Assembly (NCBI GenBank): GCA_030431475.1
Contig: JAUIJD010000013.1
Coordinates: forward strand, 1 to 64,000
Direction of reading: 5' to 3'
Source of the DNA: Verrucomicrobiia bacterium
GTDB lineage: Bacteria > Verrucomicrobiota > Verrucomicrobiia > Verrucomicrobiales > Akkermansiaceae
DNA length: 64,000 bases
The position numbers were made by a program, and so were the translations under genes. Below are positions 2,782-6,897 of the stretch, in pieces. Below the pieces are notes generated by a model. It had not been told where the DNA came from. It saw only the letters and a program-made list of their open reading frames with translations, and searched no databases. The stretch's first letter is position 1; each line of letters starts with the position of its first letter.

Positions 2782-5700
2782 ATGTCCGTCACTGCCCGTC
2801 TCGAACCCCGCGTCATCCCCACCTACCCGGTCGGAGCCCCGGAAAAGAACCCGGTCTTCTTCGAAAAGCGGGTCTATCAGGGCAGCAGCGGCAAGGTCTA
2901 TCCCGTCCCCTTCGTCGACAAGGTCCATGACGAGCCGGTCGATGTGACCTATCAGTCCGCGCTGCTGGAAAACGACTTCGTCCGGCTGGTGATGCTGCCG
3001 GAGATCGGCGGTCGCATCTTCCTCGGCCAGGACAAGACCAACGACGACTACGACTTCTTCTACCGCCAGGAAGTGATCAAGCCCGCGCTCGTCGGCCTCG
3101 CCGGCCCCTGGGTCTCGGGCGGCGTCGAGTTCAACTGGCCCCAGCACCACCGCCCCGGCACCTTCATGCCGGCCGATGTGCACATCGAGGAGGAATCCGA
3201 CGGCGCCTACACCGTCTGGATGTCCGAGCACGATCCGCTCAACCGGCTCAAGGGCATGCACGGCATCCGCCTGCGCCCCGGCTCCTCGCTCATCGAACTC
3301 CGGGCCCGGCTCTACAACCGCACGCCCTTCGTTCACACCTTCCTGTGGTGGGCGAATGTCGCCGCCCGCGTGCACGACCAGTACCAGTCCTTCTTCCCGG
3401 CCGACGTCCACTACGTCGCCGACCACGCCGTGCGCGCGTCGTCGTCATTTCCCGTGGCGGAGAACGACTACTACGGCATCGACTATGCCGCCCGCCCCGG
3501 CGCCAACGACCTTTCCTGGTACAAGAACATCCCGGTGCCGACCTCCTACATGGTCTGCCAGACGCTCTTCGATTTCTTCGGCGGCTACGATTTCGAAAAG
3601 AACGGCGGCTTCGTGCACATCGCCAACCGTCACATCGCTCCGGGCAAGAAGCAGTGGACCTGGGGCAACGACCGCTTCGGCTGGGCCTGGGACCGTGAAC
3701 TCACCGACGAAGGCGGGCCCTACGTCGAGCTGATGGCCGGCGTCTACACCGACAACCAGCCCGACTTCACCTATCTCCTCCCCTACGAAACCAAGACCTT
3801 CTCGCAGTTCTGGTGGCCCATCCAGAACATCGGCCCGGTCCAGCAGGCCAACGAAACGGCCGCCCTCGCCCTCGCCATCCGCGACGATCGCTCCATCCGG
3901 CTCGGCCTCTGCGTCTCCGAACCCTTCGAGGGCGAGCTCGTGCTCACGACCGCCTCCGGCCCCCTCGCGCGCTTCCCGGTTTCGCTGAAGCCCGGTGAGT
4001 CGTTCAGCGATGAAAGCACGCGCTTCCCGGGCGAGAACCCCGCGGAAGTCCTCGCCGAACTCCGCGACGCCTCCGGCGCCCTCGTGCTCGACTACCGTCC
4101 GGTCGATACCTCGACCCTGACCCGCGACCGCCAGGTCGCCACCGAGCCACCCCCGCCTGAAGACATCCCCTCAAGCGACGAACTCTACTTCACCGGCGAG
4201 CACCTCGAGCAGTACCGCCACCCCACCCGCTCGCCCGAGCCCTACTGGGAGGAAGCCCTGCGCCGCGACCCCGGCGACTCACGCTGCCGCACCGCCCTCG
4301 GCCGCCGCGCGCTGCTGCGCGGGGAATTCGAGAAGGCCCGCGAGCATCTTGCGGCCGCGGTTTCCCGCCTCACCCTTCGACATCCGAACCCGGTCACCGG
4401 CGAGGCCCACTACCACCTCGGCCTCGCCGTCCGCTTCCTCGGCCAGCCGGAGGACGCCTACCGCGCCTTCTACAAGGCGACCTGGAACTACGAATGGCGC
4501 AGTAGTGCCTACTACCAGCTCGCGACGCTCGACGCCCGCAAGCGGGACTGGAGCACCGCGCTCGAGCATCTCGACGCCTCGCTCGACACCAACCGCGATC
4601 ACAACAAGGCGCGGGTCCTGCGCGCCCTCGTATTGCAGCGACTCGATCGCCCCGAAGAAGCCCGCCGCGAACTCGACGCGCTGCTGACCATCGATCCCCT
4701 CGACCACTGGGCGCTCCACGTCCGCGACGGCGGCATCCCCGAAGCCTCCCGCAACGACGCGCAGACCGTCCTCGACCTGGCCTTCGACTTCCTCGAAGCC
4801 GGCTTCGACGACGAGGCGCTTGCCCTGCTCGATGCCCACCATTCCGCTCCGGTCGATCCCGTCGCCGTGCCCAATCCGCTGGAGAAGAGCGCGATGACCC
4901 ACTACCTCCGCGCCCGCATTACCGGCGACGCCGGCGACCTGGAAGCCGCACGCAGCGCGTCGCCGGACCACTTCTTCCCCTCGCGCCTCGAGGAAATGGA
5001 GCTTCTCGAGTGGGCGCTGGCCGGGAACGTGGCCGGGGCTTCCAGTCCCGTCGCCAAGAACCAAGCACCATCCGCACAACCCGAGGCCGCAACCGTGGCC
5101 GGGGCTTCCAGCCCCGTCGCCAACCCCACCACCTTCACCCCCACATATCTCAAACAGGATTCCGAAGTCGAAAAATACCGCAACCACCTCCCCCACTGGC
5201 AGCAGCAAAGCGCCACCTACGCCGTCACCTTCCGGCTCGCCGACTCCCTTCCCCAGTCGTTGCTCCAGAGTTATCTCGCCGAGAAAAGGCAGACCCTCGA
5301 GCGTATAGAGGATGCCGAGGAGAAAGATGACGCTTCCCTGACGGAGGCGTTCAAAATCCAGCTCGAAGCTCTCTACCGCGATCACATCGAAGCCGCCCTC
5401 GACCGCGGCATCGGCGCCTGCCACATGCGTGACCCTCGCGTCGCGAAGATCGTCGCCGACGCGATCACCCATTTCGACGGCGAGCGTTACGATCTCGCCG
5501 CCTGGTGCGTGATGCCCAACCACGTGCATCTCATCATCAGGCCACTTGGTGAAAACCGCCTGCCCGACATTCTCGCCAGCATCAAGTCCTACTCGGCGCA
5601 GCAAGCCAACCAGACTCTCGGCCGCCACGGAGCCTTCTGGATGAGCGAAAGCTATGATCACCTAATCCGCGACCAGAAGGACTTCGCCAATCAACTCACC

Positions 5701-6897
5701 TACCTGACCCGCAACCCGGCCACCGCCAAGCTCAAGGACTGGCCGTGGATCGACTCCAAGCAGATCCTCTGGGACGGCCAATCCGTGGCCGGGGCTTCCA
5801 GCCCCGTAGCCAAGAGTCATGGAAGGGCGACGGGGCTGGAAGCCCCGGCCACCCTCGACCCCCTCGCCGCCTACGGCCTCGGAAACTTCCACTTCGACAA
5901 ACGCCGCCACGCCGACGCCATTGCTGTTTGGGAACGCGCCGTCGAGGAAGGCACCACCATCCCGCAGGTCCACCGAAATCTCGGCATCGCCGTCTGGAAC
6001 CACCACCGCGACGGCGAGCGCGCCGCCGCCTGCTACGAGCGGGCCCGCCAGCTCGACCCCTCCGACGCCCGGCTGGTCAGCGAGTCGGACCAGCTCGCCA
6101 AGAAGCGCAACCGTCCGCTCGCCGAGCGCCTCGCCTTCCTCGAGGCGCACGACGAGCTGGTCCGGCAACGCGACGAGGCCACCGTCGAGGTCGCCTCGCT
6201 GCTGAACCTCACCGGTCGTCCCGAGGATGCCCTCGAGCTGCTGCTATCCCGTCGCTTCCACCCGTGGGAGGGCGGCGAGGGCGCGGTTCTGCGGCAGTAC
6301 ACCGCCGCCCGCCTGCTGCTCGGCGAACGCGCACTGGACACCGGCGACGCCGAGACCGCCCACGAGCAGTTCTCCCTCGCCATGGAAACCCCCGACTCGC
6401 TGGGCGAGGCCTATCATCCGCTCCAGGCCAAAGCCGACGTGAACTACTGGATCGGCCGTAGTTTGAAGGCTCTCGGCCGCGCGGACGAGGCAACCGCCGC
6501 CTTCGAAGCGTCGGCCTCCGAGTCCGGCGACTTCTCCGAGATGGCGGTCGCCGAGCACTCACCCCTCTCTTACTTCCGCGGGCTCTCACTGCGGGAGCTC
6601 GGCCGGGACGACGAGGCCGCCGCCGTCTTCCGGGCCATGCTGGAGTTCGCCGCCGCCCGCAAGGCCGAGCCCGCGAAGATCGACTATTTTGCGACCAGCC
6701 TGCCCAACCTGCTCGTTTTCGACGAGGACCTGCAGGCCCGCCGCGACGCCGAGGCCGACCTGATCGCCGCGCTCGCCCACCACGGCCTCGACGCGTTGGA
6801 CGAGGCGGCCTCGGCCGTCCGCCGCACCCTCGACTTCGACCGTTCCCTCGCCCAGGCCGTCGCCCTCGAAGCCCGACTCGAAACCACCACCGCATGA
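2782..6897 (+). CDS. DUF5107 and TPR protein containing an in-frame RAYT transposase
   Basis: Residues about 1-440 match the DUF5107 family, a beta-sandwich resembling aldose epimerases (LPEIGGRI, GPWVSGGVEFNWP), usually found with GH2 genes in polysaccharide loci; its biochemical role is not established. TPR helices occupy about 455-749 and 1027-1371. Between them, residues 750-1024 are a foreign segment: REP-type palindromes and a Y1/HUH transposase (NHVH motif, His914 and His916; candidate catalytic Tyr974 in YLTRNP). The TPR repeat is cut between EWALAGN and DPLAAYGLGN, which are contiguous in relatives as I recall the family. Removing about 275 codons leaves about 1096 residues. No signal peptide. 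The stop overlaps the next start (ATGA). Whether the chimera is translated intact is not known. Confidence 0.85.
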   Translation: MSVTARLEPRVIPTYPVGAPEKNPVFFEKRVYQGSSGKVYPVPFVDKVHDEPVDVTYQSALLENDFVRLVMLPEIGGRIFLGQDKTNDDYDFFYRQEVIKPALVGLAGPWVSGGVEFNWPQHHRPGTFMPADVHIEEESDGAYTVWMSEHDPLNRLKGMHGIRLRPGSSLIELRARLYNRTPFVHTFLWWANVAARVHDQYQSFFPADVHYVADHAVRASSSFPVAENDYYGIDYAARPGANDLSWYKNIPVPTSYMVCQTLFDFFGGYDFEKNGGFVHIANRHIAPGKKQWTWGNDRFGWAWDRELTDEGGPYVELMAGVYTDNQPDFTYLLPYETKTFSQFWWPIQNIGPVQQANETAALALAIRDDRSIRLGLCVSEPFEGELVLTTASGPLARFPVSLKPGESFSDESTRFPGENPAEVLAELRDASGALVLDYRPVDTSTLTRDRQVATEPPPPEDIPSSDELYFTGEHLEQYRHPTRSPEPYWEEALRRDPGDSRCRTALGRRALLRGEFEKAREHLAAAVSRLTLRHPNPVTGEAHYHLGLAVRFLGQPEDAYRAFYKATWNYEWRSSAYYQLATLDARKRDWSTALEHLDASLDTNRDHNKARVLRALVLQRLDRPEEARRELDALLTIDPLDHWALHVRDGGIPEASRNDAQTVLDLAFDFLEAGFDDEALALLDAHHSAPVDPVAVPNPLEKSAMTHYLRARITGDAGDLEAARSASPDHFFPSRLEEMELLEWALAGNVAGASSPVAKNQAPSAQPEAATVAGASSPVANPTTFTPTYLKQDSEVEKYRNHLPHWQQQSATYAVTFRLADSLPQSLLQSYLAEKRQTLERIEDAEEKDDASLTEAFKIQLEALYRDHIEAALDRGIGACHMRDPRVAKIVADAITHFDGERYDLAAWCVMPNHVHLIIRPLGENRLPDILASIKSYSAQQANQTLGRHGAFWMSESYDHLIRDQKDFANQLTYLTRNPATAKLKDWPWIDSKQILWDGQSVAGASSPVAKSHGRATGLEAPATLDPLAAYGLGNFHFDKRRHADAIAVWERAVEEGTTIPQVHRNLGIAVWNHHRDGERAAACYERARQLDPSDARLVSESDQLAKKRNRPLAERLAFLEAHDELVRQRDEATVEVASLLNLTGRPEDALELLLSRRFHPWEGGEGAVLRQYTAARLLLGERALDTGDAETAHEQFSLAMETPDSLGEAYHPLQAKADVNYWIGRSLKALGRADEATAAFEASASESGDFSEMAVAEHSPLSYFRGLSLRELGRDDEAAAVFRAMLEFAAARKAEPAKIDYFATSLPNLLVFDEDLQARRDAEADLIAALAHHGLDALDEAASAVRRTLDFDRSLAQAVALEARLETTTA
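5029..5059 (+). repeat. REP-like palindrome, copy 1
   Basis: Contains GTGGCCGGGGCTTCCAG followed by TCCCGTCGCCAAGAA. The palindromic core is GGGGCTTCCAGTCCC here, with one arm mismatch compared with copies 2 and 3. Confidence 0.85.
5095..5123 (+). repeat. REP-like palindrome, copy 2
   Basis: Direct copy with the perfect core GGGGCTTCCAGCCCC followed by GTCGCCAA. It lies just before the transposase coding part. Confidence 0.85.
5785..5815 (+). repeat. REP-like palindrome, copy 3
   Basis: Direct copy just after the transposase coding part, with the core GGGGCTTCCAGCCCC followed by GTAGCCAAGAG. Confidence 0.85.
5826..5852 (-). repeat. REP-like palindrome, copy 4, inverted
   Basis: Inverse complement of copies 1-3, reading GGCGACGGGGCTGGAAG then CCCCGGCCAC on the + strand. 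With copy 3 it forms a head-to-head pair, the arrangement typical of BIME-like units around RAYT genes. Confidence 0.85.

Follow-up and report, generated by a model that had tools for sequence, protein, structure and literature searches.

The window analyzed here, a stretch of 64,000 nucleotides of DNA from a Verrucomicrobiia bacterium of the family Akkermansiaceae (contig JAUIJD010000013.1), contains an open reading frame (ORF) in which the gene of a repetitive extragenic palindrome (REP)-associated tyrosine transposase (RAYT), together with its REPs, lies in frame inside a DUF5107/tetratricopeptide repeat (TPR) protein (Table 1). No stop codon occurs anywhere within this ORF, and Pfam places TPRs on both sides of the insert. 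The element has a GTGG foot at its left end and a CCAC foot at its right end, and each of the three direct REP copies is 96–100% complementary to the inverted copy. A first-pass annotation made from the sequence letters had described a full-length, stop-free RAYT between TPR units, with two direct REP copies on its left, one direct and one inverted copy on its right, and the motifs NHVH and YLTRNP; the open frame, the profile matches and the coordinates and complementarity of the REPs all agree with that description. The boundaries it proposed also held, as six uninterrupted homologues (L114–L119; G, L and C numbers are our handles for genomes, loci and contigs) have a short loop at the same place.

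Table 1 Features of the chimeric reading frame, in window coordinates.
Feature	Position	Strand	Basis
Chimeric ORF, DUF5107/TPR host protein with in-frame RAYT element (1371 aa)	2782..6897	+	ORF, Pfam, NCBIfam
DUF5107 domain (aa 38–347, E 1e-45)	2893..3822	+	Pfam
TPR region preceding the insert, last residues EWALAGN	4246..5028	+	Sequence, Pfam, homologue alignment
Inserted element, GTGG-REP to REP-CCAC through the RAYT (824 nt foot to foot)	5029..5852	+	
REP copy 1, direct	5029..5055	+	
REP copy 2, direct	5095..5121	+	
RAYT coding region (TnpA-REP-like HUH transposase), lacking a stop codon of its own	5137..5784	+	
HUH motif NHVH	5518..5529	+	Read from sequence
Presumed catalytic Tyr of YLTRNP	5701..5703	+	Read from sequence
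REP copy 3, direct	5785..5811	+	
REP copy 4, inverted, ends the element with CCAC	5826..5852	-	
Rest of the TPR region, begins LDPLAAYGLGN	5853..6897	+	Sequence, Pfam, homologue alignment

The inserted gene was matched by Y1_Tnp of Pfam at residues 901–953 of the chimera (26.0 bits, gathering cut-off 23), by the NCBIfam model REP_Tyr_transpos (NF047646) at residues 883–989 (E 8e-19; 67.9 bits, under the curated cut-off of 80) and by the solved TnpA-REP structure PDB 4er8 (E 6e-5). No HINT (intein splicing) domain was detected in the chimera by Pfam and NCBIfam scans at E ≤ 1. In an AlphaFold2 model of the segment, the TPRs on either side of the insert were modelled well, with a predicted local distance difference test (pLDDT) score above 85 in most blocks.

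A search of 386 genomes of the order at E ≤ 1e-100 found the host gene in 37. Thirty-one host loci were scanned for a RAYT (L020–L030 and L145–L164), and 29 were readable, as the host part past the insertion site was missing from L161 and L163. Five of the 29 carried a RAYT, in every case in frame: the window and loci in G017, G001, G042 and G377, whose RAYTs are 71, 67, 59 and 54% identical to the window copy, respectively. Judged by this occupancy and these identities, the RAYT of the TPR gene is not a domain fixed in the family, and it is not the product of a single recent insertion either. The idea that the REP and HUH stretch might belong to most orthologues, raised in the first-pass annotation, is not borne out by these counts. 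Its proposal of a chimeric protein stands as likely, but a "very recent" insertion does not, given that the site is also occupied in four other genomes by RAYTs this divergent. Between the window and G017, the RAYT has a dN/dS of 0.149 and the host part one of 0.208. G042 is a member of another family of the order, and its TPR host gene (L112) is 76% identical to that of the window, above several copies from the same genus; it is possible that the whole chimera was horizontally transferred.

The genome from which the window derives has 13 RAYT hits, one of them partial. The paralogue closest to the window copy, at 48% identity, is an in-frame resident of IspG, and the remaining copies are at most 48% identical, so there are no near-identical copies of the kind found for IS200/IS605 insertion sequences. 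A search of the same genome for the REP palindrome gave five inspected loci that were intergenic or ambiguous. Within the genus, a RAYT was found in frame inside LeuRS of G014. Across the order, the window RAYT matched 135 of 386 genomes at E ≤ 1e-38, and most of the best matches listed fell within frames of 800–1600 aa. From the listed matches we read 87 regions chosen for long frames and 13 with short frames. A long frame by itself was rejected as proof of insertion, as it proved wrong for IspG of G177 and G235 (both uninterrupted), and only loci in which the RAYT itself was located were therefore counted. On this basis, no fewer than 93 loci in at least 69 genomes encode a conserved protein with an in-frame RAYT, the hosts being MetH (at least 42), IspG (26), LeuRS (12), the TPR protein (5), CarB (4), HsdR (3) and a PglX-like methylase (1), all minimum counts, with 13 further long-frame matches among those listed left unread. 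Ten representative hosts were named by profiles and the others by flank similarity; the PglX-like profile match falls below its curated cut-off, and the hosts of L198, L229, L234 and L244 were assigned from one flank, the other being cut short. Two MetH genes (L216 and L226) contain two RAYTs apiece. A C-terminal fusion to CinA (L141), named by eye, was left out of the 93.

The usual description of RAYTs as single-copy intergenic genes, on which the first-pass annotation relied, thus does not fit either the 13 hits of this genome or the at least 93 protein-resident loci. Its suggestion of a transposase acquiring a TPR scaffold is unlikely as a general explanation, because the same RAYT lineage occupies unrelated enzymes. 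None of the 39 stand-alone RAYT loci seems to split one of these host genes, and no frame-breaking RAYT was found in eight short IspG or MetH frames (L378–L385), most of which are cut by contig ends. Two of these frames are irregular, and neither yielded a RAYT: IspG of L378 (G042, contig C19) looks frameshifted, and in L380 (G088, contig C324) stops terminate IspG close to where the RAYT usually sits. A phylum-level search matched 54 of 387 genomes, many again with long frames; the hosts among them include a valyl-tRNA synthetase, HypF, radical-SAM proteins, HsdR and PglX-like enzymes (identified by eye or flank similarity). Viral contigs that were searched yielded no relative. By eye, two genomes have a RAYT and REPs in a single frame that lies upstream of a NUDIX-like ORF (L257 and L276, outside the 93). 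Some MetH frames contain large in-frame inserts of another kind, with a P-loop and located before the B12-binding domain, i.e., at residues about 453–778 of L203 and about 36–417 of L256 (sequences compared by eye), the latter with a weak Zeta_toxin match (Pfam E 9e-6).

In a midpoint-rooted RAYT tree of 137 rows, one side of a branch with an SH-like approximate likelihood ratio test (SH-aLRT) support of 100 holds 80 rows, 78 of them nested in MetH (44), IspG (26), the TPR protein (5) and LeuRS (3); the window copy falls within a 16-row group (SH-aLRT 95) of 11 MetH and 5 TPR residents. Nine other LeuRS copies and those from HsdR and CarB lie elsewhere in the tree. Because all listed short-frame matches down to E 1.1e-45 were in the tree, the composition of the 80-row group does not stem from the choice of long frames among the best hits. 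The host labels need 13 changes on the tree, compared with a mean of 77 after shuffling, and none of 200 shuffles was as low. A single clade of all 95 nested rows was rejected by the approximately unbiased test (p-AU 0.00012); several gains and gains followed by escapes were indistinguishable.

The H-x-H motif and the Tyr are retained in 97 of 98 in-frame copies (a set that includes the CinA and NUDIX cases) and in all 39 stand-alone copies. Finite dN/dS values ranged from 0.05 to 0.29 across 101 same-host RAYT pairs with at least 60% identity, pairs that are non-independent and many of which have saturated dS. These substitution patterns show the RAYT coding sequence to be under purifying selection.

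Inverted REP pairs were detected at 75 of the 93 in-frame copies with enough flank and 22 of 36 stand-alone copies, compared with 2 of 128 shifted controls. The left foot is GT[AG]G in 56 of the 75 paired in-frame copies and sits in codon phase 0 or 1 in all but one of these 56, the exception being in phase 2, where a GTAG foot would yield a TAG stop. REP-like peptides were also seen by eye elsewhere in the same host protein (LeuRS of L129 and HsdR of L250), and arrays of them adjoin the RAYT in L360, L364 (an HsdR frame) and L370.

The interrupted LeuRS and IspG genes are sole copies of needed enzymes. In all 12 genomes with a RAYT-bearing LeuRS, every LeuRS match (E ≤ 1e-30) falls in the interrupted frame, with summed scores of 850–979 bits against a family cut-off of 548. 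All 222 genomes with an IspG match have a single one, and IspG is interrupted in at least 11 of them, nine read directly (G000, G002, G023, G087, G124, G211, G223, G238 and G252) and two identified by RAYT and IspG hits sharing one frame (G168 and G251). LeuRS is essential, and IspG is essential when the mevalonate route, of which HMG-CoA reductase is the mark, is absent. We sought HMG-CoA reductase in 13 genomes, i.e., 11 with an IspG RAYT (the interrupted list without G087 and with G017) and the uninterrupted G177 and G235; it was absent from nine of the 11 and present in G017 and G124. The genomes concerned are 89–98% complete. In MetH, comparison with 11 empty alleles placed the main insertion point in a loop between SDWVAP and the conserved GGFVVGIHG.

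Evidence for movement of the element on its own is clear in one pair of loci. The MetH genes of G305 and G277 (L200 and L201) share an identical block of 733 nt, comprising the element and tens of host bases on each side, whereas the surrounding genes are about 83% identical. This contrast clearly points to the element having moved alone, between divergent alleles and at the same site, as in homing. Transfers are suggested less strongly for L208/L210 (dS of 0.06 for the RAYT and 0.53 for the host) and L197/L208 (0.29 and 0.93), and for the IspG trio L231/L234/L235 (0.04–0.08 and 0.19–0.30). The RAYT is more alike than its host in 5 of 780 MetH, 1 of 253 IspG and 1 of 66 LeuRS pairs, and in 4 of 10 TPR pairs, there by 0.03 at most. 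Spearman correlations between host and RAYT identities were 0.56 for MetH, 0.39 for IspG, 0.33 for LeuRS and 0.81 for TPR, values reached in 0, 0, 47 and 58 of 999 permutations, respectively. The RAYT is usually more diverged than its host, so most residence is long-standing and part of it vertical. Residence is thus largely inherited, and from time to time the element alone is transferred to the same site.

The reading we favor, and consider probable, is that the REP-RAYT element in the window is catalytically intact and belongs to a lineage that dwells in host proteins, where the element persists as an unspliced, in-frame passenger that occasionally homes. The element, i.e., a GT[AG]G-footed REP, a stop-free RAYT and an inverted REP, would sit in frame within a loop, a position at which an insert is likely to be tolerated, and would be translated in one chain with the host as an extra domain, with the REP-encoded peptides serving as linkers while the host protein keeps working. 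The RAYT would cut and rejoin single-stranded REP hairpins at its own ends, and in this way it may occasionally copy itself into an unoccupied allele of its host gene in a different cell and, rarely, into a gene that is new to it. As a resident, it would be expressed from a conserved gene, and its imprecise loss would disrupt the reading frame. A broader proposal, which we put forward tentatively and with somewhat less than even confidence, is that these elements form a distinct class of protein-resident transposons that occupy essential enzymes as in-frame domains, are expressed by them, remain unspliced and home via single-strand HUH chemistry at their REP ends, an intein-like life without splicing that was gained more than once, or gained and then left, in this order and its relatives.

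Several observations weigh against the favored reading. Element-only transfer is clear in a single pair, both of whose genomes are drafts, and is suggested in a few others, and the RAYT has diverged further than the host in most pairs (median nucleotide identity in MetH 0.53 vs 0.67). A REP pair went undetected at 18 of the 93 in-frame copies, and the Tyr is gone from one copy nested in IspG (L260). AlphaFold2 left the RAYT insert (about residues 190–465 of the modelled segment) unmodelled, with block pLDDT of 23–84, because the alignment held no homologous RAYT. The foot-to-foot length, determined for 54 elements, leaves a remainder of 1 in 33, 2 in 19 and 0 in two when divided by three, and the 824 nt from GTGG to CCAC in the window are likewise not a multiple of three. 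The true ends of the element are therefore probably offset from the feet by a base or two in either direction; alternatively, the window junction itself may differ by a base or two from the foot-to-foot reading. The dinucleotide 5' of the foot follows no strict rule (CC, the commonest, precedes 10 of 45 left GTGG feet), so a cleavage-site rule based on it was rejected and no target site is claimed.

The old residence, the low dN/dS (at most 0.29 where finite), the retained catalytic residues and the partly congruent divergence of host and RAYT (Spearman 0.33–0.81) would also be expected if the RAYT had been domesticated as a useful domain of its host protein, for example for DNA or RNA binding or regulation. 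This is unlikely, as a single lineage resides in unrelated enzymes, is patchy among orthologues (5/29 readable TPR loci; at least 11/222 genomes for IspG), keeps its terminal REPs and has moved as an element alone. A purely passive insertion, i.e., an inert, drifting passenger that is in frame by chance, could look similar because out-of-frame insertions in needed genes would be lost and in-frame ones remain, and excerpts of PMC3733652 report in-frame REPs from other phyla. Retention of H-x-H and Tyr in 97 of 98 copies, the low dN/dS and the recurrence by site and by clade make this explanation quite improbable.

Precise excision of the insert at the DNA, RNA or protein level would restore an uninterrupted host protein, and IS200/IS605 relatives are known to excise precisely as single strands. 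We regard removal as very unlikely here: the window protein lacks a HINT domain in the scans above, and the conserved frame and RAYT coding would be needless for an excised insert, which together argue against removal before translation. An assembly or frame artefact is conceivable in that many of the relatives are draft assemblies and a long frame was misleading for IspG of G177 and G235, but the same architecture recurs in single-contig genomes (IspG of G002 and G223 and MetH of G235) and in G014, and an artefact can hardly be the explanation.

Excerpts of PMC8049555 describe RAYTs as single-copy and vertically inherited genes that do not copy themselves. RAYTs are also described as domesticated genes of unknown function; the lineage described here behaves otherwise. 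Since the fate of a resident RAYT is tied to that of LeuRS or IspG, these copies provide a direct test of what RAYTs do. The chimeras would also be natural examples of large domain insertions accepted by working enzymes. No report placing a RAYT gene within the reading frame of MetH, LeuRS or IspG was found in a search of titles and the beginnings of abstracts, which left most subscription papers and preprints uncovered; within the literature searched, the parts are known and the habit of living in frame in other proteins is new. According to a portion of PMC6006769, a 2018 survey of the RAYT family set aside "unexpectedly long proteins", taking them for fusions or annotation errors, which may explain why resident RAYTs were missed.

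The element resembles known RAYT/TnpA-REP systems and REPtrons, which are related to IS200/IS605, in its HUH and Tyr core, its match to 4er8 and the inverted REPs on its flanks, whose feet are mostly GT[AG]G. Sections of PMC8266576 report that TnpA-REP enzymes cleave next to REPs and that GTAG takes part in site choice, and REPs inside RAYT genes are mentioned in part of PMC6006769. Unlike the RAYTs described so far, the present gene has no stop of its own, resides within host proteins, occupies many hosts and has once moved alone; it departs from the free-standing, single-copy habit usual for RAYTs, which is not part of their catalytic definition. Parts of PMC3733652 document in-frame REPs and Rickettsia palindromic elements (RPEs), i.e., palindromes read within proteins, including tRNA synthetases and proteins of the verrucomicrobium O. 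terrae, and the REPs here are likewise read in frame. Those elements are short and non-autonomous (dimers of 20–30 aa and clusters of 43–82 aa, from the same excerpts), whereas here a whole transposase gene is inserted.

Inteins are found in frame in conserved enzymes, are sporadically distributed and are transferred to the same site, and those with homing endonucleases share all three features with the resident RAYTs. In contrast to inteins, the window protein showed no splicing domain when scanned, the insert appears to be retained in the protein and the nuclease is a single-strand HUH enzyme. Alongside introns, which rely on RNA splicing, and inteins, which rely on protein splicing, resident RAYTs suggest a third route by which a mobile gene can occupy an essential gene without harm. 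A parallel on the RNA side is given by IStrons and group I introns, which, as far as portions of PMC4227781 describe them, are also transposase-linked insertions made harmless to the host. In the resident RAYTs, harmlessness would stem from the open frame rather than from RNA splicing.

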